Positions 29,799-52,238 of a stretch of 64,000 bases of DNA are shown piece by piece. Below the pieces are notes generated by a model. The model was not told the DNA's origin. It ran no database searches and was given only the letters and a program-made list of their open reading frames with translations. Positions within the stretch are counted from its first letter, which is position 1; each line of letters begins with the position of its first letter. Both the position numbers and the translations under genes were made by a program. The stretch comes from Candidatus Enterococcus stercoripullorum (GTDB taxonomy: Bacteria; Bacillota; Bacilli; Lactobacillales; Enterococcaceae): contig DWVH01000007.1 in assembly GCA_019120335.1 (NCBI GenBank), positions 55,223-119,222 of the forward strand, read 5' to 3'.

Positions 29799-31361
29799 TT
29801 ATAACAATTGGGCAAATAAACGTAAGAATAATTCTTTCAATGACAAATGAGCTTTACTTCCCTTTTGATACTCTTGTGTAACTTCACGACATTCTTCAAA
29901 AGTAGCATCAAAATCTGCTTTAATATCAAGCACTGACTGCGTGTCAACCATAAAGCAGCCATTTTCAAAATGATGATACAAACTGCGATAATCCAAATTA
30001 ATCGTACCACAAGTTGCCATCACATCATCAACCACACTCATTTTCGCATGACAGAAACCTGGCGTCCATTCATAAATACGAACCCCATGCTTAACCAAAT
30101 CAGGATAGAAGGAACGCGTCACCCCATAAACCATCTTTTTATCTGGAATTCCTGGAGTAATAATTCGCACATCTACGCCCCGTTTTGCAGCAAGAGCAAT
30201 CGCATGCACCATTTCATCCGTTAATATCAAATAAGGCGTCATAAAGTAACAATATTTTTCCGCCTTATTGGCCATACTGATATACACTTCTTCTCCGACA
30301 CGTTCACTAGACATCGGAATAAAGGCATAAGGTTGGACAAAGCCAGTCTCACTTGCTTCATAGCTATCAACAGGTAAAAAGCGCATAAAGTTCTCATCAT
30401 GATTATCCGTTTCTTTGACGGCATTCCACATTTCCAAAAAGGCAATCGTTAAGGAACGCACAGCAGGACCTTCCAGCCGAATTCCCGTATCCTTCCACAT
30501 GCCATAAGGGTGCGTTACATTGAAATACTCATTGGCCAAATTATAGCCACCAGTAAAGCCAACTTCGCCATCAATGACCGTAATTTTGCGATGATCACGA
30601 TTATTTAAGAAGACATTTAGCCCAGGCATAAACGGATTAAACACCCGACAAGCAATTCCTAGCCCTTCCATTTTTTGTACAAAATCCGTATTGATAAAGC
30701 CAATCGAACCCATATCATCATAGAATACGCGAACTTCGAGCCCTTCATTGACTTTTTCAACTAAGATTTCCTCAATTCGATGCCAGGATTCCTTATCTTC
30801 AATCGCATGATATTCCATAAAAATAAAATGTTTGGCTTGCTTTAACGCTTCAAGTTGTGCTTCTAAACCTTTGACCGCTTCGTTATAATACGTCACATCT
30901 GTATTTTGATAAAGTGGATATTTCGCATAAGTCTGCAAATAATGTGAAATGCTCGCGGCTGCAGGATATTCTTGGCGTAAACGTTCAATCAATTCCGTTG
31001 AATCAGGTAATAAAGGCAAAATGGTGTCATCAATCGCTTGATAACGAGCACGCATTTTTCGAGTGCCCTTATTAAAACCAACTAGTAGATAAATCGTTAC
31101 ACCAACAATTGGAAATAGCATAATTAAAATAATCCACGGCATCTTCATCGTAGCCGTCTTGTCTTCGCTATAAATATAGAGCACTAAAATTGCTGCTAAA
31201 CCTCTTGTTAATAAATTCAACCACTCAGCATAATCGTTTAACGAGGTAAATAATAAAATAATCAGTGTCACTTCGAGCAAAATGGAAAGCACTACGAAAA
31301 TCAATCGTTTCACACCATTTTTGGTTTTCTGACGGCTTTCCAAAGTAGTCTGCTCATTCAT
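29799..31361 (-). CDS. cls: Cardiolipin synthase
   Basis: This 520-residue membrane enzyme joins two phosphatidylglycerols. Two N-terminal membrane helices are followed by two phospholipase-D HKD motifs: DHRKITVIDGEVGFTGGYN near residue 250 and CHAKMSVVDDVMATCGTINLD near residue 430. The ATG at 31361 follows GAAGGAAGTGG; a longer in-frame start reaches back towards the preceding gene without a ribosome site. Ends at a strong terminator. Confidence 0.93.
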   Translation of the reverse strand: MNEQTTLESRQKTKNGVKRLIFVVLSILLEVTLIILLFTSLNDYAEWLNLLTRGLAAILVLYIYSEDKTATMKMPWIILIMLFPIVGVTIYLLVGFNKGTRKMRARYQAIDDTILPLLPDSTELIERLRQEYPAAASISHYLQTYAKYPLYQNTDVTYYNEAVKGLEAQLEALKQAKHFIFMEYHAIEDKESWHRIEEILVEKVNEGLEVRVFYDDMGSIGFINTDFVQKMEGLGIACRVFNPFMPGLNVFLNNRDHRKITVIDGEVGFTGGYNLANEYFNVTHPYGMWKDTGIRLEGPAVRSLTIAFLEMWNAVKETDNHDENFMRFLPVDSYEASETGFVQPYAFIPMSSERVGEEVYISMANKAEKYCYFMTPYLILTDEMVHAIALAAKRGVDVRIITPGIPDKKMVYGVTRSFYPDLVKHGVRIYEWTPGFCHAKMSVVDDVMATCGTINLDYRSLYHHFENGCFMVDTQSVLDIKADFDATFEECREVTQEYQKGSKAHLSLKELFLRLFAQLL

Positions 31362-31897: not shown

Positions 31898-32656
31898 CTA
31901 ATATTTTAGATTCTCTTCTGGAAAATAAAATACCTCATGTTTACTAAAATAAGCAGCAGTAATCTCATGCCACCTTGCCTTTTGAAACTTCAAGGCTCTC
32001 AGCGGAGTCAAACCATAATGCCCAAGCGCAAAACCATCATTGATTTCAACAACAAGCGTCCGACCATCTTTCGTAACCCCAATATCCAAACTATAAGCAC
32101 ATGGCGCATCTTGCCAAAGTTTAATGGCTTGATCGATTACCGAAGCATCATACTGCACATGATAATCTCCTACATAAGGACGAACATCAAGTACTGCCCC
32201 ATGTAAAATAAAACAGCGCCACTCTCTAATGAATTCAACAGGTTCACTCGCCCACACCGGATAATCCATCGGTAAACCAATGCCAATCAAATCGCTAATC
32301 GAGGATACCACACGTCCAGTAAAGACTTTAGAACCATCTTTTGGTTTGATAAATACTGGCCAAGTGTTAGGATCATTAACAATTTCACCAATTTTACACG
32401 TTTTGATTTTTCTGCCATATAAGAATTGCAAGGCGTCTGGATAATCTAAAAGCGGTACTTTTAATCCCATCCATTCAAATAATTGATACGACTGCTGGAC
32501 ATAATCAAAAACATAATCATCTGCAGTTAACATATCAATTTCTGCAAAAGACTGATAAAACTTTACTTCTTCTCCTCGCAAATGAGCGCCTACCATTAAA
32601 TTATACTTATTCATCGCAATTTCATCTAAAAACTGTGCTTCTCTGATGTATATCAT
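31898..32656 (-). CDS. ATP-grasp protein, R2K-like clade
   Basis: This 252-residue protein has a C-terminal ATP-grasp core: WPVFIKPKDGSKVFTGRVV supplies the nucleotide-binding lysine, followed by EFIREWRCFILHG and VVEINDGFALGHYGL with the metal-binding Glu/Asn. The compact form resembles the R2K ATP-grasp clades, whose substrates are unknown but which often lie in phage or accessory regions. It sits downstream of a ribbon-helix-helix gene and carries a copy of that gene's operator-like repeat just upstream. Confidence 0.75.
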   Translation of the reverse strand: MIYIREAQFLDEIAMNKYNLMVGAHLRGEEVKFYQSFAEIDMLTADDYVFDYVQQSYQLFEWMGLKVPLLDYPDALQFLYGRKIKTCKIGEIVNDPNTWPVFIKPKDGSKVFTGRVVSSISDLIGIGLPMDYPVWASEPVEFIREWRCFILHGAVLDVRPYVGDYHVQYDASVIDQAIKLWQDAPCAYSLDIGVTKDGRTLVVEINDGFALGHYGLTPLRALKFQKARWHEITAAYFSKHEVFYFPEENLKY

Positions 32657-33622: not shown

Positions 33623-34009
33623 TTATAATATCTCTTTTAATTTATTGACCACCGCTATATCCGCGGGCAGCCAGTCTACTGAATCAAGTGTCGCTTTAGT
33701 CAACCATTTCGCTGCACTATGCTCTAACAAATCCAGCTGCCCAGTAACACGTTGACACAAGTAACAATACATTTTTAAGTGAAAGGAAGGATAATCATAT
33801 TCAACCGTTTCAATCAATTCGCCAACTTCAATTGTTGTATTGAGCTCTTCTTGAATTTCACGAGCAAGGGCATGCTCAGGTGATTCGCCTTTCTCTAGTT
33901 TACCGCCAGGAAATTCCCAACCACCTTTTAAATCACCATAACCACGCTGAGTCGCGAAAATCTTGCCATCTTCTTGAATAATAGCTGCTACAACTTCTAT
34001 CTCTTTCAT
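33623..34009 (-). CDS. Nudix hydrolase, MutT-like
   Basis: This 128-residue protein has a full Nudix box GGKLEKGESPEHALAREIQEEL (split here over residues 35-57) and resembles MutT/8-oxo-dGTP and (deoxy)nucleoside triphosphate pyrophosphohydrolases. It lies six bases after the stop of the DUF3427 helicase gene, so the two are almost certainly co-transcribed. Confidence 0.88.
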   Translation of the reverse strand: MKEIEVVAAIIQEDGKIFATQRGYGDLKGGWEFPGGKLEKGESPEHALAREIQEELNTTIEVGELIETVEYDYPSFHLKMYCYLCQRVTGQLDLLEHSAAKWLTKATLDSVDWLPADIAVVNKLKEIL

Positions 34010-34015
34010 CTCACT

Positions 34016-37000
34016 CTACCTTTCAACAATATAGTCATAAATATCTTCTCGCACCTGAGTTTCAAGCTGCCAACCAATTTCAACTGCGGTTTTGTTTGTA
34101 TCTTTCATTTGAAACTCTTCCGCAAAACCAGTGGGCTTCATTCGGCCAAGATAATAAAATTCCTTTGAAGTCCTATCATCTTTATTTTTACGAACAAATA
34201 AATCTACTTTAATTCCTCTTTCTTCCGCATTGATAAAATTCTGCACATCATTTGAACTAAGATTTCGACCTGATTTTGAAATTGCAATCAGCTGATTTTC
34301 ATTAATAAAACGATCTTCATAATTTATCGTCGCATCAATATCCTCGGATTTGTGATAGTTGATGAATACCGGGAAAGTGTTCGTATCTTTATCAAATTTA
34401 TAACCACCAATATTTTGAGCGACTGAATTTTCTTGCCAGTTTAATAATCGACACACATCTTCGTAAGTATATTTTTGATATAAAACAAAATTCGTATCTT
34501 GATATCTATCCTGATAATTTTGTTCATAACGATGTAACCCAAATTCGATCACCGATTTAAGTTGATGGACGAATTCTTCATCCGTTAATGCTTGCTTAAA
34601 TAAATCAGAAATCAACCATTCTCCTGAAGAATCATCCATAAAGATACAATACTTAAATGTTACTTTTTCGCCACCAGTAATAAATCTGCCCGTTAAGATA
34701 TTAGCCACATTTACTTTTGCTTTCAAATCAATAGCGATTCCGTAACGACTAGCCATTTCAGAGTCCCAAATTGGATAAATATCTTGTTCTTGATTTTGCA
34801 TTAATAATTGTAAGGCGAGTAACTCATGCGCACGTTTTCCACTCGCGAATTTGCGTGAAATAAACTTCAACATTTGTTCATTCGATTCTGAAAGCTCGAA
34901 ATGATACTCTGATTCATAATTATTTAAAAAGCGATAGTATGAACCCAATTTAGGATTTCCTAAAATACGCATGACATCAAGCTCACCATATTTTTCAAAT
35001 TCCATCAGTTCTGGAATACGACCTAATTTTTGTCGTAATCCCTTATAAGCATCTTTGATCAATTGAATGGAGTCGAAATTTGCTCCGTCAATCGATTCAA
35101 AGATTTTTTTACGTGAAACTTCATCAAAGTGAATCGTTGACGCACCTGGAATCGTACGGTCAGATTCTGAAATGAACTTGCGAATATTATCTTTATTGTA
35201 ACTACGGTCTCCAGATAAAGCAATCGGTATCATGTAGTTATTCTTATAGTTTCCAATAAAATCAAGCACAACTAGATATTCTTTATCCTTATCCTTACGC
35301 AAACCACGCCCTAATTGCTGAACAAAAACGATTGGTGATTGTGTCGGTCTAAGTAGAACCACTTGATTAACTTCCGGAATATCCACACCTTCATTAAAAA
35401 TATCGACAGTAAAAATATAATCTAGATAATCAATTTGCTGATCATCTACCAAATAAGAAATCATTTTTTCACGCTTTTCTTGAGAATCTGAACCAGTCAA
35501 ATAATCCGTTCGATATCCTCGTTGATTAAAAGCCGCACTTAATAATTGGCACTCCTCTTTTGAACGACAGAAAATTAACCCCTTCACCCTGTCACCCGAA
35601 TAACCAAAATACTCGATTTTCTCAATAATATGATTGATCCGTTCACTAGAAGAAAGACGCGTAAAATCTTTTGTTTCATCTAGTAATTGATTATTGACCT
35701 GGATATCGCTAATCCCAAAGTAATGGAATGGACAAAGTAACTCTTCTTCCAATGCTTGCTTTAAACGAATTTCATAAGCAATATTATGATCAAATGCTTT
35801 AAACACATCAAAATTATCGGTACGTTCTGGTGTTGCGGTCATCCCTAAAAGTAATTCAGGTTCAAAATAATCTAAAATTCGTTGATAAGAACCTGCTCCT
35901 ACGCGATGGGCTTCATCAATCACCACTACATCAAAGTAATCTTTCGGAAATTGTTGCCGAATCTCTTCTTTCGCCATCATTTGCATTGTTGAAAAAAGGT
36001 AATCCACACTTGTATCGGCTTTATGATTACCCGACAGCAAGCCAAAAGTCCGTGTTGGTCCGAAAACTTTTTTATAACTTGCAATGGCTTGTTTCGCGAT
36101 TTGCTCACGGTGAACTAAAAATAGTGCGCGTTTGTATTTGATATTTCTTAACGCAAAAGCCGAGGCATAGGTTTTCCCAGTACCAGTCGCTGATATAAGT
36201 AATGCACGCTTAGCACCATTTGCAATCAGCGCTTTTAACTCATCTATGAATCCACTTTGCATCGAATTTGGCTGTAATTTATACATTTCCATTTCAGGAA
36301 CAGCCATTTGTCGAGTCACATCACGTTGTTCTTGAACAATTTCATATTGTGTATCATAACTATCCGCTACTTGCTCATATTGTACAGTATGAGAATCCTG
36401 CCAAATTGCTTCGAACTCTTGCTGAATTTTTTGTTTTTGAATTGCTTTTTGGCGTTGATAATTTTCTTCATAGATTTTTGCTAAATGTTCATCATATTGC
36501 TGCGAATTATCACTCCAAAGTGCTTCAAACTCATCGACTAAATCCTTATAAACCGCACCATCTTTAGTAGAAATCAACTTTGTATTCCACTCTTTGTTCT
36601 TCGTTAAAGCATTCATGGTCAAGTTGGAACTACCAATAATCATACGGTATAAGTTATCTTTTTCGAAAATATAGCCCTTTGTATGGAAACCAGATGACTG
36701 ATTTTGGGTCCGATACATTCTAACTTCAATATTCTTTAACTCAGCTAACTTTTTCAAAGCTCTAGGTTCGCTAAAGGTTAAATAATCAGTAGTTAAAACA
36801 CGCCCAGGAACACCTCTTTGCTCTAACTCTTTAAAGACCTGCAACAAAGGCGTAATCCCACTCATCGTAATAAAGGCCACACTTATGAAGAAAGCATCGC
36901 AGTTTTGCAATTCATATTCGATTTCCGTTAAAACTTTATGGAATTTTCGCTGATTATTTGATACAAATTTAGGATGAAAAGCTAAATTACCAGCTATTTC

Positions 37001-37063
37001 ACTTTCTTGCACAAAAGCATGATATAACCCTTTATGCATCACCTCTAAAGATTTATCATCCAA
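34016..37063 (-). CDS. PLD-DEAD/DEAH helicase-DUF3427 protein
   Basis: This protein of about 1015 residues has an N-terminal phospholipase-D-like domain (GFHTKGYIFEKDNLYR and IIGSSNLTMNALT near residue 130), a superfamily 2 helicase core (SATGTGKTYASAFAL near 295, VVIDEAHRVGAGSY, MTATPERTD, and FVQQLGRGLRKDKDKEYLV near 600), and a long C-terminal DUF3427 region. Such proteins are nuclease-helicases of unclear role and are candidates for restriction or defence. I favour the TTG at 37063, eight bases after AGG, over the GTG at 37072, which lacks a site. Confidence 0.85.
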   Translation of the reverse strand: MDDKSLEVMHKGLYHAFVQESEIAGNLAFHPKFVSNNQRKFHKVLTEIEYELQNCDAFFISVAFITMSGITPLLQVFKELEQRGVPGRVLTTDYLTFSEPRALKKLAELKNIEVRMYRTQNQSSGFHTKGYIFEKDNLYRMIIGSSNLTMNALTKNKEWNTKLISTKDGAVYKDLVDEFEALWSDNSQQYDEHLAKIYEENYQRQKAIQKQKIQQEFEAIWQDSHTVQYEQVADSYDTQYEIVQEQRDVTRQMAVPEMEMYKLQPNSMQSGFIDELKALIANGAKRALLISATGTGKTYASAFALRNIKYKRALFLVHREQIAKQAIASYKKVFGPTRTFGLLSGNHKADTSVDYLFSTMQMMAKEEIRQQFPKDYFDVVVIDEAHRVGAGSYQRILDYFEPELLLGMTATPERTDNFDVFKAFDHNIAYEIRLKQALEEELLCPFHYFGISDIQVNNQLLDETKDFTRLSSSERINHIIEKIEYFGYSGDRVKGLIFCRSKEECQLLSAAFNQRGYRTDYLTGSDSQEKREKMISYLVDDQQIDYLDYIFTVDIFNEGVDIPEVNQVVLLRPTQSPIVFVQQLGRGLRKDKDKEYLVVLDFIGNYKNNYMIPIALSGDRSYNKDNIRKFISESDRTIPGASTIHFDEVSRKKIFESIDGANFDSIQLIKDAYKGLRQKLGRIPELMEFEKYGELDVMRILGNPKLGSYYRFLNNYESEYHFELSESNEQMLKFISRKFASGKRAHELLALQLLMQNQEQDIYPIWDSEMASRYGIAIDLKAKVNVANILTGRFITGGEKVTFKYCIFMDDSSGEWLISDLFKQALTDEEFVHQLKSVIEFGLHRYEQNYQDRYQDTNFVLYQKYTYEDVCRLLNWQENSVAQNIGGYKFDKDTNTFPVFINYHKSEDIDATINYEDRFINENQLIAISKSGRNLSSNDVQNFINAEERGIKVDLFVRKNKDDRTSKEFYYLGRMKPTGFAEEFQMKDTNKTAVEIGWQLETQVREDIYDYIVER

Positions 37064-37116
37064 GACTAACACCTACATTTCATTCATAACTAATATCATT
37101 ATACTAAGGAAAAGAA

Positions 37117-37600: not shown

Positions 37601-40600
37601 TTACTTAATATTTTTCTGAAGGATTCTTTCAACTTCTTCAGGTAAAACTCCCATAAAGTAATCCTCAATCGTATCCCAAAACCAATTAGTATAATTTATT
37701 ATTTTATCTTTTGAACTTCCAGTAAATTGCTTAGTAAACAAATATTTCAACATTTCTACGCTTGTATAATGCTTATGTTGAACATCTTCTAATATTAGAT
37801 TTTTATAATTTGACCCAGGTTTAATAGCAGATTCTAAATGAAAAATTCTATATATTTTTATATCAATTAATGGATTATTTCCACCAATAAGTTGGTAATT
37901 TAACAATTCTAATACATTTCCTATACCTAGTACGGTTAAGTAAGTGTCAATTTTAGAAGAATTATTTCTTAAAAAGAATGTCAAAATTGTATTATCGTCA
38001 ATAAAAGTATTTGATTTAGTTGTTAATATATCATTTAAGTTCTTCATAATAAATTCATTGTAAATTGTTGCATCTTGATGTACTTGATACCTTTGATTAT
38101 AAATACTACTATTAGAACGTTCTGTAATAAATTTACAATTTGTTACTTTTGAAAATTCAAATGCGGAATTTAATATAACATCCGACAAAGACGTAGCTGT
38201 TTGCGGATCCATAATCTTAAGTTCTTTCTGGAAGTATTTTGATAGTTGTATAATATTAAATTGGCTTTCAGTCAATAAATTATCATTTATAAAATTATTG
38301 AAACACCCTAATACAAGTCTATATTTCGACAAGATGTCTTCAATTGTTAATTTACAATTAGTTTTAACCTCAATCCCGGTAGTTAGAATAAATTGATCAA
38401 AAATATTATTATCTTCAAGTTTCTTTTTATGATCATGAGAAAAAATTAAATATTTAAATTCAGGATACGAAAGATGTTTATAGTATTTTTCCCAGATTCC
38501 GCTTAGTTCTACTTCATAAACCGATGAATATAATTGACTATTAATATTATATTTTTTATGAAAGAATTCTCTTAATCTTGACTTTAGAAAAAAAGTTTCA
38601 GTTGATTTATCTACTAAAAGTAAATCATTTCCAAAATATGTCCTTGGTCGTGCAGATAAAGGAGAATATCCTAATTTTTTTGGTGATGCAAAATCTTTCT
38701 CAATCATTAATAAAGCAGTTTTAACCTTATTATCTAGGGATTCTTCATCTAGTACAGTATTAGAAAATATATATTTAAAATCTTCTGGACTTACTAGTAG
38801 TCGCCTATTATGTTGTTTATCATTATAAGTATGAACAATTTTTCGTATCACTTCTACCAATTCATTTTTTTTAATTGAAGACAATCCATACAATTTCTTT
38901 ACATCCGAAATATCACTTTTCAAAAAATCAATTATTCCAAATCCAAACTCTACTTTGTTTTTATCTCTAGCTACTCTTCCAATTTCTTGAATATAGTCCA
39001 CAACATTTCCGGTAGGAGCGTAATGATAAACATTAGTAATATCCGGAATATCTATTCCCATTCCAAAAGCTTTAGTCGCTAATACAAACTGCAAATCTCC
39101 TGTTTTAAATCTTTCTAAAACAGCATTTTTATCTTCTTTACTCAAACTACCATAATACTTTCCTACTTTGCTACTAATTTCCGGAGAATTTTTTAATACA
39201 AATTGGTAAAATTTATTCAACAAGGAAATAGTAGGAAAATAAACTAAACTTTTCTGATTTTTTTTGAAGGCACTATTTAAATGCTTTAAAGCTAAAAAAT
39301 CTTTTGTTTTTCTATAGTCTTTACCAGCATCATTAAATTCCTTATCACTACTTCTTACTTTCATTAAAATATCGTTTCTACGAACAACTCCAAAATACGA
39401 AATAGGATTTATTAGATTCAAACTATTTCTTGTATCAACATACATATCCTCGCTACCACCATATATAGCTGTGGCAGTAAAAGTAACAATTGGAAATTTT
39501 TGTTCTTTTCTGATCTTTGATAAATATAATCCTAAGTACCAATAATCTGCTCTGAACGATTTTCCCCAAGTAGTTACAATATGGGCTTCATCGACAATGA
39601 GTGTGCCAATTCTCCTGTCACCAATCAATAATTTTATATCACTTTTTGACAATAATGTTTCTGGTGATAAATATAACATATGAACTTCACCATTTATAAT
39701 TTTTTTTAATATATTCTCTTTTTCATATGGAGATGTATTTCCGTTGATTGTTTCAGCAATACTTATTCCTTTTTGTTTCATATTCATTACTTGATCGTTC
39801 ATTAATCCAATTAATGGTGAAATTACTAATGTTAAAGGTACATCTTCAGTACAATTTTCAAAAAAATACAATGTAGGTATTTGAAACATTACTGATTTTC
39901 CTGACCCTGTAGAGGCAGTAATATAAATATCTCTAAAACTATTGTTTGATAATGCATTTTGTGTTTGAGATACTATGTCATCAATAATCTGTGCTTGAGA
40001 AATTCCAACAGTTTCCTTAGATTTGCTTTCTATATTTTTATAAAATGTAAGTTCTCTATAATCCGAATATCCGTAATATCTATTTAAGATATCCAAGTAT
40101 TTTTTTTCATTTCTAATATACTGTTTCTTAATTGATGAGTAGATAAACTTAAATTCAATATTATATAAAACCTTTAGAATAGAAATTCTTTCTAAGTAGT
40201 TGTGAGGTAATTTTGTAAAATCACTTGAAATTTTAAAATATATAGGATATGACATGACACTATTGTTGTTAATCAGTTCTGTTTCCAAATCTAGAAATGG
40301 AATCTCATCATCAGAAAGCTCAATTTGAATAACGTCTTTATTTTCGATATTCTCAACTATTTCAGGGGTCTGAAGCTCATAGTTAAACAATTTATATACA
40401 AATGTATTATTTTGAATTACGTTTTCAAAGTTCTCTGGAAATGTCATATAAAAGTTATTACTATATATTGAATAATCAATTTTTCCATAAAAATTTGATA
40501 CTTTCGCAAGCAATACATTCTGATCGTCATTTAATAATTCATCATTATTGTATAGATGTTTATAAATATCTGTCACATCGGAAAGGGTATTTTCATATGG

Positions 40601-40933
40601 AAATTGCTTATAAAACAAATTATTTTCTAAAATTACAAGCGGTCTTGAATTAATATTCAGATATTCTTTAAATATCTGAAATTCTTCCATTGTCATCCAT
40701 TTAAACCTATTAGTAAAATCTAAATTAGAAAAAACATCTTGGATCACAGTATTTCTATGTAAATTTATATCAAATTTATCAAGATAGTTGAACGATAAAG
40801 AAAAATATCTATTATTCTCGTCAAAATAGTCAGTACTTATTCCTTTCAAAATAATTATCGGTCTCTCTACTTTATTTATAATTTGCTCTATTCGTTCATT
40901 TATTATATCAGTTATTTTCATAAAAATAATCAT
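37601..40933 (-). CDS. RecQ-like DEAH helicase with novel flanking domains
   Basis: This 1110-residue protein has a novel N-terminal region of about 320 residues, then a RecQ-like helicase: ITASTGSGKSVMFQIP (Walker A, about 340), ISPLIGLMNDQVMNMKQKG, IVDEAHIVTTWGKSFR (about 450), FTATA, ATKAFGMGIDIPD and YIQEIGRVARD (motif VI). About 430 further residues follow without RQC or HRDC domains that I can recognise. Its start overlaps the end of the sigma-factor gene by 26 bases, so both are translated from one message. AT-rich codon use suggests acquisition. Start may be 40933 or 40921. Confidence 0.85.
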   Translation of the reverse strand: MIIFMKITDIINERIEQIINKVERPIIILKGISTDYFDENNRYFSLSFNYLDKFDINLHRNTVIQDVFSNLDFTNRFKWMTMEEFQIFKEYLNINSRPLVILENNLFYKQFPYENTLSDVTDIYKHLYNNDELLNDDQNVLLAKVSNFYGKIDYSIYSNNFYMTFPENFENVIQNNTFVYKLFNYELQTPEIVENIENKDVIQIELSDDEIPFLDLETELINNNSVMSYPIYFKISSDFTKLPHNYLERISILKVLYNIEFKFIYSSIKKQYIRNEKKYLDILNRYYGYSDYRELTFYKNIESKSKETVGISQAQIIDDIVSQTQNALSNNSFRDIYITASTGSGKSVMFQIPTLYFFENCTEDVPLTLVISPLIGLMNDQVMNMKQKGISIAETINGNTSPYEKENILKKIINGEVHMLYLSPETLLSKSDIKLLIGDRRIGTLIVDEAHIVTTWGKSFRADYWYLGLYLSKIRKEQKFPIVTFTATAIYGGSEDMYVDTRNSLNLINPISYFGVVRRNDILMKVRSSDKEFNDAGKDYRKTKDFLALKHLNSAFKKNQKSLVYFPTISLLNKFYQFVLKNSPEISSKVGKYYGSLSKEDKNAVLERFKTGDLQFVLATKAFGMGIDIPDITNVYHYAPTGNVVDYIQEIGRVARDKNKVEFGFGIIDFLKSDISDVKKLYGLSSIKKNELVEVIRKIVHTYNDKQHNRRLLVSPEDFKYIFSNTVLDEESLDNKVKTALLMIEKDFASPKKLGYSPLSARPRTYFGNDLLLVDKSTETFFLKSRLREFFHKKYNINSQLYSSVYEVELSGIWEKYYKHLSYPEFKYLIFSHDHKKKLEDNNIFDQFILTTGIEVKTNCKLTIEDILSKYRLVLGCFNNFINDNLLTESQFNIIQLSKYFQKELKIMDPQTATSLSDVILNSAFEFSKVTNCKFITERSNSSIYNQRYQVHQDATIYNEFIMKNLNDILTTKSNTFIDDNTILTFFLRNNSSKIDTYLTVLGIGNVLELLNYQLIGGNNPLIDIKIYRIFHLESAIKPGSNYKNLILEDVQHKHYTSVEMLKYLFTKQFTGSSKDKIINYTNWFWDTIEDYFMGVLPEEVERILQKNIK

Positions 40934-42188
40934 CTAACCTTTCTTTCACTTTTTTACAATTGCTTAATCTCTTTATTGCTTTATTTTCTATTTGCCTAAT
41001 TCTTTCTCGCGTTACACCAAATTCTGAACCTATTTTCTCTAATGTATGTTGTTTCGAGTCATCTAATCCAAAACGTAAAATTATTATCTCTTTTTGTCTA
41101 AATGTTAAATACTCCTCTAATATTTTTCTAATTTGGAGTTTCAAATCATCGCATTCTACTTCTTGATCTGGCATTAATGTAGTCTTATCTTCAATAAAAT
41201 ATCCAAATTTTGAATCATCTTCATCATTTATCGTCTGGTCAAGACTAATTAAATTTGACAAATTCTTATATACTTTTAAATCATAAATATCATTTACAGG
41301 AATTTCCATAATAGTAGATAATTCGTTTTCGGTAGGATTCCGATTGTATTCTAGATAAAATTCATTTTCGACTTTTATTAGCTTGACTAACTTTTCTCTC
41401 ATATGTACCGGAATCCTTATTAAGGTACTATAATCAGCTATGCCTCTTGAAATTGCTTGCCTAATCCAGTGAGTTGCGTATGTTGAGAATGTATTTCCTT
41501 TACTAATATCAAATCTTTCAGCAGCTTTTAATAATCCAGTTACGCCTGCTTGGTACATGTCTTCTTCATCAAATGATACTGTACTCAATTTTGAATAGTG
41601 TCTGACAAATTTCCAAATCAAACCATAGTTAGCCTTAATGAGATTATTTAGTGAGCGTTCTTTTATATCGGCATCAGAAAAATCACTCTGAAATTGTTTG
41701 ATGTAATCTATATTATTTTCAATAGAAACAACATCTTCTAATTCATCTAACTCATTTTGAAAATTATCATCTTCAAATAGAACGTCTAAATCATCGAAAT
41801 TGTCGATATCTATATCTTGGTAAAATTTTCCACTAGAAACATTATCTTCAAAAATATACGAATCAGAAATCAATGTCTCCTTTATTATATTTCTCAAATC
41901 TTTACTAATATTTTCTTTTTTGCACCAGGAATCAAAATAATCATTTTCTATCACTTTTTGTTCGCCAAGTGGTTCTAGCAGTGATCTAAATTTGGTGATT
42001 AATTGTTTCTTTGAGTATTTGACATCAATTGATAATTCTTTAAGTAATTTTTTAAAATCTTCTCTTTGTTCATCAGTAACTCCATATCGCGCAATCAAAT
42101 AATTTAATTCAAGCAAGTTAACTACACTACCATATCTATAATGTTCAATTATATATTCTTCTAATTCTTTATATCCCAAATCATTCAC
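40908..42188 (-). CDS. RpoD-like sigma-70 factor with novel N-terminal domain
   Basis: The C-terminal 250 of 426 residues hold sigma regions 2 (LIKANYGLIWKFVRHY, EEDMYQAGVTGLLKAAERFD, FSTYATHWIRQAISRGIAD), 3 (IRIPVHMREKL) and 4 (LTFRQKEIIILRFGL, then VTRERIRQIENKAIKRL). The first 170 residues are acidic and unlike RpoD region 1.1. The protein is not the housekeeping factor, because it lies in an accessory region and forms an overlapping pair with a helicase. It probably directs RNA polymerase to the operon itself or to a small set of promoters. Confidence 0.88.
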   Translation of the reverse strand: MNDLGYKELEEYIIEHYRYGSVVNLLELNYLIARYGVTDEQREDFKKLLKELSIDVKYSKKQLITKFRSLLEPLGEQKVIENDYFDSWCKKENISKDLRNIIKETLISDSYIFEDNVSSGKFYQDIDIDNFDDLDVLFEDDNFQNELDELEDVVSIENNIDYIKQFQSDFSDADIKERSLNNLIKANYGLIWKFVRHYSKLSTVSFDEEDMYQAGVTGLLKAAERFDISKGNTFSTYATHWIRQAISRGIADYSTLIRIPVHMREKLVKLIKVENEFYLEYNRNPTENELSTIMEIPVNDIYDLKVYKNLSNLISLDQTINDEDDSKFGYFIEDKTTLMPDQEVECDDLKLQIRKILEEYLTFRQKEIIILRFGLDDSKQHTLEKIGSEFGVTRERIRQIENKAIKRLSNCKKVKERLDDYFYENN

Positions 42189-42239: not shown

Positions 42240-42428
42240 TTAGAAATTATTTATATAGAACTCTTCCCCCAGCAACTTCACCTCATCGTTGTTCATATAC
42301 TGCTGGTACAACTCATTTATTTCTTCATTACTTAATTCTGGTCGTTCTAGCTTGATGATTGCTTGAATCAAATCCGCATAATTGGTTTCACTATATTCAT
42401 TTATTTTATTCATTATCTCTGCATTCAT
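42240..42428 (-). CDS. Small unknown protein (62 aa)
   Basis: This short helical, acidic protein (MNAEIMNKINEYSETNYADL) begins five bases after the stop of the ATP-grasp gene and uses an AAAGGATGA site located in the end of that gene. Such coupling suggests a functional link. No family is recognised. Confidence 0.55.
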   Translation of the reverse strand: MNAEIMNKINEYSETNYADLIQAIIKLERPELSNEEINELYQQYMNNDEVKLLGEEFYINNF

Positions 42429-42433
42429 TCAAA

Positions 42434-43285
42434 TCATCCTTTCATTGCTTCATTCAGCATCCACATAAACGCTACTCTATCCTGATGGTCGCTCAATCCT
42501 GATACTTGACCATCGCCAGCTTCAATGACTATCCACGAGCCATCAGCCAACTCGGCATAGTCCACAGTATAAAATGGACTTGGTAAATGTTGGTATTTTT
42601 CGACTAATTCTCTAGGTGGCTGTGTGGTAAACTCATCATTTGCTACTGATTCTGTAATACTTATCACTTTCCCATTTGCATAAAAAACTCGATATTCATT
42701 ATGTCGGCCATTGAATGTTTTTAACTCAACATACTCTTTGATACAGATTCCACCTGTTAGTAAATCCCCGCGATAACGATAAAAAATTTCAAGATATTCA
42801 TCTAATTGTTGCTGAGAAATCGCACTAGAGATACGGCTTGGTAATTCAGTTCCTTTTGCTGATTTTACATAGTCCTTAATCATAAACGCCGACATCTGAG
42901 AACAAATTTTTTCTATATCCACCTTAGTCCCTAATGGAAAGGTCAACATTTTGGGTGTATCTTCTATCAATTCTGGATAAATGTTTGGAAATAAATGAAA
43001 TTGTTCGTACTGCTCAGGTGAGGTTAATAATTCAATCTGATATTTCTCTCTTAATTGCGAATAAAAAGATTGGTATTGTTTTGGTGTCATCATCCAACCA
43101 CGATAAATAGCACTACCAGGCGTAAAATTAACTTGATTCAAGATTAGTCGGTTTTCTTCAAAAAATTTTTCATAATTAAAAATGAAAGCTTGAATTTCTG
43201 TCTGACAAGCTTGATATTCGCTAAGGTATTCTGCTTCAACTTGCTTTCCATCAAAATAATCAGATGGGAAAATGATATAGTCCAT
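42434..43285 (-). CDS. ATP-grasp protein, R2K-like family
   Basis: This 283-residue protein begins MDYIIFPSDYFDGKQVEAEY, has AIYRGWMMTPKQYQSFY and PNIYPELIEDTPK in its first half, and the ATP-grasp core from about residue 150: MIKDYVKSAKGTELPSR for nucleotide binding and VIEAGDGQVSGL for metal binding. It is one of two distinct R2K-type ATP-grasp genes in this window. Substrate unknown. Confidence 0.78.
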   Translation of the reverse strand: MDYIIFPSDYFDGKQVEAEYLSEYQACQTEIQAFIFNYEKFFEENRLILNQVNFTPGSAIYRGWMMTPKQYQSFYSQLREKYQIELLTSPEQYEQFHLFPNIYPELIEDTPKMLTFPLGTKVDIEKICSQMSAFMIKDYVKSAKGTELPSRISSAISQQQLDEYLEIFYRYRGDLLTGGICIKEYVELKTFNGRHNEYRVFYANGKVISITESVANDEFTTQPPRELVEKYQHLPSPFYTVDYAELADGSWIVIEAGDGQVSGLSDHQDRVAFMWMLNEAMKG

Positions 43286-47591: not shown

Positions 47592-48806
47592 TTAATTTGA
47601 AATAAGATAAATATTTTCATTATCAAAGCAAATTTCATCTGTATGATTATAAATCTGAATCATATCATTCATCTTCTGAATATAAAGAGTTGTATTTGGA
47701 TTACTCAACAACGCAAAATCTTTTACAGCTTTTCCTTCTAACTCTTTACCACCATCCGTTAATTTCTCACCTGCATCTTGCAAAAATTCGTCCACTTGTG
47801 CATCCTTCACGACAGGAATATTTCCAATCAGATTTCCCATGAACTTGCTTGCAATGCCAACACCTTTCATTACATTTGCTTCTACAGAGGTATTAGACAT
47901 ATTTTCTAAATATTTCGAACAATCTCCAAATAATTGACGATACTCAGCAGAAAGATTTTCAATTTTATTTTTTATCTCTTCAATATAATCTTCTTTAAAG
48001 TTACCACTTAGCATAATTTCTAATAATGAAGCTAAAGAAAAAATATAAAGAGACAAGCGATAATATCTGAATGTTTTCTTAAGTTTATTCAAAGTCGATT
48101 GAACCATCGATTGGGCAACTAATAGATTTTTTGAAGTTATCATCTCATCAAGTTGTTTTTTATAGAAATTTACATTTTTTCGAGCAGTTCTTTGAATATC
48201 CAACACCATTTTATGATTACCAGCAATAAAATGTTTATTATCCCAATTTGACTTGTATTTTTGAATAATATCAAGTAATTGTTCTACATCTGCTTCTATT
48301 TCTGACTCTTTTTCTGTTTCTAAAAAACTTAAAATTTGCTTACTTGTTTCAGAAATTGTTTTGATTTCTTTCTCAACAGAATATAGTGCTACAGCCATCA
48401 TCATCATTGCTGGATTTACTGAAGTTGCTGTTGTGAGCGTATTTGTAACTGATAAATCACTTACTGCTTGGAATTGAGCAAATCGTGATCCCCCTTCAGC
48501 AGTTTTCAAAGCACCCCAGAAATTACCATTTTTCGCTAACTTTAGTGAATCGCCAACTTGAGCATTTGCTAATCGATATATTCCGTCTGTTGGCAAACTC
48601 ATTGTCTGCGTAATTGTGCTAAACGTAGGTACCATCGATGCTATACTCGCTCCCATAACGGACAATTCACTTAATGGCATACTAATTGTATTTGTTTCAT
48701 TTATTTTTTCTTTAGATTCTGTTAATAATGACTCAGTTAAGCTAACTAAATCTTGTGAATCATTTACATTTTTTACTTGATTATTTAAATTAATGACATC
48801 TCCCAT
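47592..48806 (-). CDS. Unknown mostly helical protein (404 aa)
   Basis: The protein has a Ser/Thr-rich N-terminal region, a weakly hydrophobic segment near residue 135 (NPAMMMMAVALYSVEKE), then long amphipathic helices, one strongly hydrophobic stretch (LYIFSLASLLEIML near 255), and a Gly-rich part (VMKGVGIASKFMGNLIGNIP near 315). The shape resembles pore-forming or membrane-remodelling helical proteins, but no family is recognised. The ATG at 48806 follows GGAGG by seven bases. Confidence 0.6.
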   Translation of the reverse strand: MGDVINLNNQVKNVNDSQDLVSLTESLLTESKEKINETNTISMPLSELSVMGASIASMVPTFSTITQTMSLPTDGIYRLANAQVGDSLKLAKNGNFWGALKTAEGGSRFAQFQAVSDLSVTNTLTTATSVNPAMMMMAVALYSVEKEIKTISETSKQILSFLETEKESEIEADVEQLLDIIQKYKSNWDNKHFIAGNHKMVLDIQRTARKNVNFYKKQLDEMITSKNLLVAQSMVQSTLNKLKKTFRYYRLSLYIFSLASLLEIMLSGNFKEDYIEEIKNKIENLSAEYRQLFGDCSKYLENMSNTSVEANVMKGVGIASKFMGNLIGNIPVVKDAQVDEFLQDAGEKLTDGGKELEGKAVKDFALLSNPNTTLYIQKMNDMIQIYNHTDEICFDNENIYLISN

Positions 48807-48823
48807 CACATTTCCTCCCGATA

Positions 48824-50894: not shown

Positions 50895-52238
50895 TTAACT
50901 AACTTTCGTTTCTTTAAAACCTTGACCACGCCTTGCAATCACGTAAGCTGCACCGGTATGTACGTTTAATTTCATCAAAGGGCAATATTTATGTTCTGCA
51001 ATCCAACTTGTCCACGCAGGATTGACTTTTCGCAACCAAACATAATTTCTAAAAGTGATTTCTTCTAAAATATGTGTAAATGTTTTATACGCAAACGAAT
51101 GAATCATTTCATTATATTGTTTGCCTGCTTTACTTTCTGTTTTTGATTTTGTTTTTTTGAAATTTAAATTTTCAATGACTAAATCTTTTCCAGATTTTAA
51201 ACATTGCTTAACTAATTCGTTTGCTAGCTGTCTAAAATCATTAACTGTTTTATTTCCTTGTTTAAAGCGATATATACGTTTATCCGTAGAAAGCATATTA
51301 CCATAAGCATCAGTTTCTGTAATAGTAATAAAACCTTTATTAAAATCAACACCTACGGTACCGTAACTATTTCTAGTTAAAAATGCTGACTTTTCTACAT
51401 GTATTTCAAATGTACAAATAAGATAATAGCGACCTTTTTTCTTTTGAATTTTAAATGATAACGGACTATAACCTTCTTTTAAAATTTGAATCAATTCATT
51501 TTTATGATGATTAAAATATACACGTCCATAGGCGTAGTTTTTCTTATCTTTATAACCACCTAAATCTTTACGTAATCGAATATCGAATTGATTATTATTT
51601 GGATTATAAAACATTTGGAGCATTTGATTTTGACAAGATTCACTTTTACAACCTACAAAACTCATTTGACTATCTCGTTGGTTACGAAAGGAAACGAGAT
51701 TTCGTTTTAGTAGGTGTTTCGTTCCAAAACAAATTTTAAAATCACCAGATGTCATTTCATAAAGCAATTGCTTTTTACGTTCGGTTAAACGGTGTAACTT
51801 CTTTTTCTTAGCGACTAACTTTGAACGCAAATTACGATGTTTCTTTAGATCAACTGTTGCCCCTAAAGCCATATTTTGCATATTCTGTTTGATAATCAAC
51901 GTTAGTTTTGGAATAATATCTATTTGTAATTTTTCAATTTTACCATTTACTTGTTTTAATTCATATTCTTTCAATTCCTTGATTGCATTATAATTACCTA
52001 TCGCATCAGAAATAATCGAGTTTGCAGTACGTTTTAAAATAATATATTTTTCCTGAAGATAAGTGTTAAACTGATGTTTTTTAAAATCAGGATCTCGTTT
52101 ATAAACATGAAAGGCTTCACGTTTGATATGATTGTATAAAACAACACCTTCTTCAAAATAATCAATAATCTCTTGATTATTCTTTTTATGAAGTTGCGTT
52201 TTAACTGTATACTTTCTTTTATATGTCATTGAACTCAC
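50895..52238 (-). CDS. tnpB: TnpB-like RNA-guided nuclease of IS607-type element
   Basis: This 447-residue protein has a helical N-terminus and a RuvC-like core: GTVGVDFNKGFITITETDA (first aspartate, near 297), SGKDLVIENLNFKK (glutamate, near 355) and NVHTGAAYVIARRGQGF at the end. The zinc-finger CxxC pairs of classical TnpB are absent, as in some Firmicute IS607 forms. The third carboxylate is not obvious at the usual place. GTG at 52238 or ATG at 52229 could be the start. Confidence 0.82.
   Translation of the reverse strand: MSSMTYKRKYTVKTQLHKKNNQEIIDYFEEGVVLYNHIKREAFHVYKRDPDFKKHQFNTYLQEKYIILKRTANSIISDAIGNYNAIKELKEYELKQVNGKIEKLQIDIIPKLTLIIKQNMQNMALGATVDLKKHRNLRSKLVAKKKKLHRLTERKKQLLYEMTSGDFKICFGTKHLLKRNLVSFRNQRDSQMSFVGCKSESCQNQMLQMFYNPNNNQFDIRLRKDLGGYKDKKNYAYGRVYFNHHKNELIQILKEGYSPLSFKIQKKKGRYYLICTFEIHVEKSAFLTRNSYGTVGVDFNKGFITITETDAYGNMLSTDKRIYRFKQGNKTVNDFRQLANELVKQCLKSGKDLVIENLNFKKTKSKTESKAGKQYNEMIHSFAYKTFTHILEEITFRNYVWLRKVNPAWTSWIAEHKYCPLMKLNVHTGAAYVIARRGQGFKETKVS

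Follow-up and report, generated by a model that had tools for sequence, protein, structure and literature searches.

A sigma-70-type factor and a RecQ-type helicase form a conserved gene pair that may serve anti-phage defence

Our analysis of a 64,000-nucleotide stretch of Candidatus Enterococcus stercoripullorum (the window; contig DWVH01000007.1, positions 55,223 to 119,222) concerns a locus in which the gene for a sigma-70-type protein overlaps that for a RecQ-type helicase. Comparison of the sequences across genomes and plasmids supports the view that the two constitute a conserved two-gene unit. We tentatively propose, with a probability of roughly 0.38, that this unit is an anti-phage module in which a sigma factor recruiting RNA polymerase would switch on a RecQ-type helicase effector acting on invading DNA.

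Results

An earlier note, drawn from the letters of the window only, had described the two open reading frames (ORFs) and their overlap of 26 nucleotides (nt), and all three are found as follows.

40908-42188, minus strand: sigma-70-type protein, 426 amino acids (aa), GTG start (ORF, Pfam and family-model matches)
37601-40933, minus strand: RecQ-type helicase, 1110 aa (ORF, family models and structure model)
40908-40933, minus strand: gene overlap, 26 nt, with the helicase ATG at 40933; the point at which identity to Enterococcus cecorum breaks

The GTG start of the sigma gene is preceded by GAGAGG, and an alternative internal helicase ATG at 40921, a position common to the E. cecorum copy, would reduce the overlap to 14 nt. 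As the note had also held, the pair is AT-rich, with a G+C (GC) content of 26.7% (0.267) compared with 35.6% (0.356) across the remaining window.

Helicase relatives were taken from 39 near genomes and one E. cecorum contig, and from searches of 398 Bacilli genomes (12 matching at 1e-60), of 395 genomes of the order (8 matching) and, by family model, of 398 genomes of the phylum (16 matching). Eight of 72,556 plasmid records match at 1e-60, six of them over at least 80% of the query. In all 24 distinct genomes or plasmids whose helicase reaches at least 467 bits against the window protein, the helicase start has a sigma ORF as its immediate neighbour, two of these sigma ORFs being incomplete (195 aa in L080; cut by the record end in L028). 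The two genes stand in line in 18 of the 24 pairs, with gaps of -71 to +22 nt, the overlaps being upper bounds since gaps were measured on the longest ORFs. The other six pairs are divergent, with 49-83 nt of intergenic DNA in five and overlapping longest ORFs in one. Below 467 bits, loci L037, L054-L056, L062-L065, L067, L068, L072 and L073 carry no sigma gene in the stretch examined, and that of L066 lies 3.3 kb away. In L057 (7302-11414), also below this score, a helicase relative broken by an in-frame stop is followed downstream by a 296-aa sigma that groups with SigA and not with the paired sigmas. Of the 17 loci from a pattern scan of viral contigs, two cover most of the helicase, and neither of these has a sigma gene; 50,697 phage records gave one partial match (29% identity) at an E value of 1e-30.

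Are the paired sigmas also found by themselves? A profile built from 19 of them (A5) scores 361-441 bits for 11 of 12 paired sigmas and 328 bits for that of genome G540, a score that SigAs also reach. At 1e-100 it finds 10 of the 398 Bacilli genomes, all among the 12 with the helicase; the two missed are G206, where the gene is cut at the record end, and G055, of a sister clade. All ten contributed to the profile, and a sigma with the divergence of the G540 one would escape it; the search therefore says no more than that close orphan sigmas were not encountered.

Based on sequence comparison, both proteins form lineages of their own that co-diverge. In the sigma tree a branch with support 91/96 separates 20 host SigAs from the paired sigmas, the finer placing being unsure given the long branches. 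In the helicase tree, which took in four of seven distant short RecQ-like loci, the sigma-linked helicases lie on one side of a branch supported at 87/92, opposite 13 others. Distances between sigma cores correlate with those between helicases (r=0.77, 19 loci), as they do when SigA distance is held constant (partial correlation 0.76, 17 genomes), and in neither case was a value as high reached in 5000 permutations. This Mantel test used 19 of 27 helicase rows and excluded three near copies (L025, L061 and L083), the truncated L080 and four sigma-less rows. Sister helicases that lack a sigma partner have other neighbours, namely a NERD-domain gene in L054 (6272-6922) and L129 (8991-10721) and an OLD-like gene in L055.

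One may consider the pair as chance neighbours, or as an ordinary RpoD paralogue beside an ordinary RecQ, given that both domain types are common (a helicase match in 39 of 39 relatives, a SigA match in 20 of 20 genomes). The 24/24 adjacency, by which the pairing is conserved beyond chance as the earlier note had asked, the separate lineages and their co-divergence, and the missed RecQ and RpoD cut-offs described below make this highly improbable.

The comparison with E. cecorum, which has the same gene order, sets the two genes apart. Nucleotide identity is 99.1% for the sigma gene and 77.0% for the helicase gene (73% at the protein level), with a synonymous divergence (dS) of 0.025 and 1.05, respectively. 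The flanks are at 93.9% (ATP-grasp gene), 92.6% (62-aa ORF), 91.7% (155-aa ORF) and 95.4-96.8% (next five genes). Identity drops at the helicase start codon and recovers near the helicase 3' end; this break, together with the 99% and 77% on its two sides, indicates that the helicase was exchanged beneath an unchanged sigma gene. In three other close pairs the sigma is less conserved than the helicase (0.78 vs 0.84, 0.85 vs 0.96 and 0.67 vs 0.80), so a general difference in rate does not account for the E. cecorum contrast. The protein clusters of the two helicases have 30 and 54 members and that of the one sigma has 72; these sizes, taken as member counts alone, fit two helicase alleles sharing one sigma. 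A second short dip in E. cecorum identity (0.76-0.83) lies at 30923-31322, in a gene otherwise near 98%.

The sigma protein can be divided as follows, all on the minus strand.

42015-42188: N-terminal part, aa 1-58, possibly a diverged region 1.1 (inferred; hhalign and profile alignment)
41841-42014: putative extra N-terminal domain, aa 59-116, weakly DpnI_C-like (inferred; z 3.4)
41733-41828: acidic linker, aa 121-152, with a DDLD-type motif recurring in relatives (alignment)
41436-41642: sigma region 2, aa 183-251 (Pfam PF04542)
41172-41396: sigma region 3, aa 265-339 (Pfam PF04539)
40965-41108: sigma region 4, aa 361-408, RERIRQ kept (Pfam PF04545)

Pfam thus recovers regions 2, 3 and 4, as predicted, and the protein passes the sigma-70 superfamily model TIGR02937 (97.3 bits, cut-off 42.9), whereas it stays under the cut-off of the RpoD model TIGR02393 (227.1 bits, cut-off 354). 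It shares regions 2-4 and the contact residues of region 4.2 with SigA/RpoD, from which the paired sigmas differ as a separate, fast-evolving lineage that misses the RpoD cut-off; Pfam region 1.2 (PF00140) has no match at E<=1 in the window sigma and 10 other paired sigmas. The motif RER[IV]RQ of region 4.2, which we take to be the counterpart of the E. coli -35 contacts, is kept in all 24 rows, of which 23 are paired sigmas and one is L057. In region 2.4 a glutamine and the second tryptophan are kept, and the first tryptophan and a threonine vary. Because SigA is encoded elsewhere in the same genome, the window sigma is not the normal chromosomal factor.

The N-terminus had been called unknown. 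Indeed, no Pfam family matches aa 1-180 at E<=1; the N-termini of the family, which are short and variable and carry the acidic DDLD-type linker, nevertheless align weakly with region 1.1. An alignment of the family profile to B. subtilis-type SigA starts at residue 15, and pairwise comparisons with SigA score higher forward than reversed in 17 of 22 cases. On these weak alignments, the sigma may begin with a diverged form of region 1.1, followed by an acidic linker. The sigma of a Lactiplantibacillus plantarum plasmid (L069:7601-8974) has a DpnI_C winged helix (Dam-replacing helix-turn-helix; aa 71-136, E 2.4e-18) fused to regions 2-4, the only such Pfam match among the paired sigmas scanned. 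The window sigma resembles it weakly over aa 59-116 (z 3.4; 8 of 1000 shuffles as high). A tandem duplication of the N-terminal domain, hinted at by repeated secondary structure in a model, is not supported by the sequence (z 1.0; 171 of 1000 shuffles as high); the model itself has a predicted local distance difference test score (pLDDT) of 43, too poor for a fold search. Searching aa 1-165 and aa 108-228 against 5.8 billion proteins found the protein's own cluster alone, in a search that needs shared 5-residue words and hence misses distant kin, the paired sigmas of other genera included.

This combination of kept SigA-like surfaces and a varying N-terminal part would also be expected of a decoy, a sigma that mimics SigA and binds phage proteins aimed at it, thereby freeing or triggering the helicase. 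A working sigma is equally expected to keep its promoter-reading residues, and we regard a decoy as quite improbable.

The helicase falls into three parts, likewise on the minus strand.

40034-40933: N-terminal part, about aa 1-300, without a family; G31, E83, E84, N104 and Y149 invariant
38963-39955: helicase core, aa 327-657, motifs intact
37604-38956: C-terminal part, aa 660-1110, without a family

Pfam places DEAD at aa 327-490 and Helicase_C at aa 555-657, with ResIII overlapping both. The earlier claim that the two ends match nothing familiar agrees with the absence of any Pfam family at E<=1 over aa 1-310 and 660-1110. The RecQ models TIGR00614 and TIGR01389 give 182.2 and 181 bits, under their cut-offs of 219.8 and 640.2. 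Nevertheless, the predicted fold and the motifs are those of a RecQ-type helicase core, and 173 positions, motifs included, show at least 90% conservation across 23 members. A structure model from 55 sequences (pLDDT 83.3, predicted template modelling score 0.72) has a RecQ core, and its best structural neighbours are BLM, WRN, RecQ and RECQL5. The RecQ core fills the lists from Foldseek and VIA-align, so that the lack of an entry for the ends does not show a new fold.

The structural neighbours include RECQL5 on RNA polymerase II, which is listed by sequence as well. It is conceivable that the sigma is a docking subunit by which the helicase is brought to RNA polymerase during transcription, there to dismantle phage transcription or replication complexes. 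RECQL5, however, is listed for a core common to other RecQ proteins. Furthermore, six copies are divergent, and the sigma stays 99% identical to that of E. cecorum while the helicase shifts to 73% aa identity. We consider this the main rival of a sigma that switches on the helicase, possible but rather doubtful.

The earlier note had placed helicase, Nudix and ATP-grasp genes around the pair, and all are present.

34016-37072, minus strand: PLD-SF2 helicase-DUF3427 gene, adjoining the pair (Pfam; PADLOC mREase_IV, 8.3e-208)
33623-34009, minus strand: Nudix gene, also matching the PADLOC candidate PDC-S07 (E 1.4e-52)
31898-32656, neighbour in the window: R2K ATP-grasp gene (Pfam)

The first of these is kept in E. 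cecorum at 96%. R2K_3 has two members in the Pfam tally of neighbours, presumably the ATP-grasp gene at 42434-43285 and its counterpart in E. cecorum. The 62-aa ORF named above (42240-42428, minus strand), which separates this ATP-grasp gene from the sigma gene, has no Pfam match. Elsewhere in the window, 47592-48809 and 50895-52238 (minus strand) encode proteins of 405 and 447 aa, neither of which matches a Pfam family, and the GC profile drops to 0.28 around 51-53 kb.

Does the pair keep company with defence genes? Neighbours were defined as the three nearest ORFs of at least 100 aa to either side of the pair in 24 loci, with only three from each of the two loci that lie at contig ends; 138 were picked and 137 scanned, one that was open at the locus end being excluded. 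Controls were 145 proteins from the 15 regions that existed out of 20 sought, all in pair-carrying genomes. At 1e-15 the neighbours match 266 PADLOC families and the control proteins 19, a tally of families and not of proteins, in which a single restriction protein can match many. Most of the 19 look like matches to one RecQ-like protein, to which are added mad3 in seven proteins and AbiLi in one. Hence the surroundings of the pair are richer in defence genes than control regions are, a point on which the earlier note had asked for a test. Pfam families among the 137 neighbours include ResIII (5), N6_Mtase (4), Methylase_S (4), phage integrase (4), C-5 methylase (3) and HNH_2 (3), these counts covering neighbours only. 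Six of ten neighbours chosen as promising, not at random, match PADLOC at 1e-25 (type III restriction enzyme, PbeC/DndD, BrxC twice, PDC-M26A and PDC-M62A), and in an E. faecium plasmid copy type I restriction genes lie upstream of the pair.

Islands collect many things, and the pair might be cargo without a part in defence, serving a mobile element or another host process such as repair or gene control. The plasmid copies, the integrase and transposase families among the neighbours and the low GC of the pair, lower than that of the flanks in 20 of 22 loci and than that of a control region in 13 of 13, would suit such cargo. In contrast, the excess of restriction, BREX and methylase neighbours over controls, and an exchange of helicase alleles that suits host-parasite conflict, argue against it. 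We judge it unlikely.

Discussion

We propose the following model for the pair as an anti-phage module. The N-terminal part and the acidic linker would hold the sigma silent until infection. Once released, the sigma would transcribe its own operon or, where the layout is divergent, the divergent helicase gene, and the helicase would unwind or dismantle phage DNA structures. We favour a switch because the promoter-reading residues are kept, the N-terminus varies as a sensor or gate might, the divergent arrangement is seen repeatedly and a single sigma goes with two helicase alleles, something that a regulator could do more readily than a closely fitted subunit. The module is further supported by the constant pairing, the separate and co-diverging lineages, the surroundings rich in defence families, the six divergent layouts with short shared intergenic DNA and the helicase motifs kept in 23 members.

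Several observations weigh against this model. The in-line layout of 18 of the 24 copies cannot separate a switch from a subunit. The residues reading the -35 element do not differ from the ones in SigA and hence give no sign of a private promoter; a promoter scan of the window gave 39 sites compared with 38.5 in shuffles, which is chance level, and a motif common to the relatives was sought by eye only. The resemblance to region 1.1 is faint as well. Pfam region 1.1 has no match in the paired sigmas scanned, and the hhalign resemblance to SigA N-termini is weak both for the short forms (P=0.0022, probability 13%) and for the long forms, including that of the window (P=0.011, probability 4%); the window N-terminus itself does no better against region 1.1 than its reversed control. 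Finally, four of the ten hand-picked neighbours are without a PADLOC match at 1e-25.

A further reading would have the unit, with its own primary-like sigma, keep RNA polymerase transcribing defence genes after a phage silences or steals SigA, the RecQ-type helicase, exchanged between alleles, being the effector. Such an immunity surviving the takeover of transcription is a doubtful but conceivable purpose.

How does the pair relate to known systems? The window helicase matches the PADLOC model C3a193 ('possible alternative Cas3') with 455.7 bits (aa 69-1095 on model positions 45-980 of 983), a model that has no curated cut-off. Its best matches in the phylum search (L054-L056) have no adjacent sigma, unlike the window helicase. 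No CRISPR link of the pair was seen, no search aimed at CRISPR having been made across the loci. RecQ, DpdF and PsyrT have the same helicase core, from which the window helicase differs by large N- and C-terminal parts without a family and by its sigma partner; on the DpdF model NF041063 it has 115.4 bits, under the cut-off of 550. In Hachiman (HamAB), a helicase and a partner likewise form a two-gene unit, but that partner is a nuclease and not a sigma factor.

A parallel for the sigma is MZA, whose sigma factor MzaA belongs to a defence operon according to PMC9523054 and the NCBIfam name. MzaA is about 700 aa long and the window sigma 426 aa. Membership of the MZA family is rejected, since the window sigma has 215 bits on NF041931 (cut-off 800), below the approximately 340-377 bits of Firmicutes SigAs. 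The earlier note knew of no described system with this pairing, and the accessible text of the open PubMed Central papers searched yielded none; one may be described in subscription papers or bioRxiv preprints, which lay outside that scope.

If the proposed module is real, a bacterial immune unit of just two components would have a sigma factor as one of them, and immunity would be coupled to transcription, whose machinery is an early target of many phages. With a size of 4.6 kb and a presence in varied Firmicutes, among them L. plantarum, a food bacterium that has it on plasmids, the unit should lend itself to testing. The two natural helicase alleles that share a single sigma would, in addition, offer a handle on which part sets specificity.
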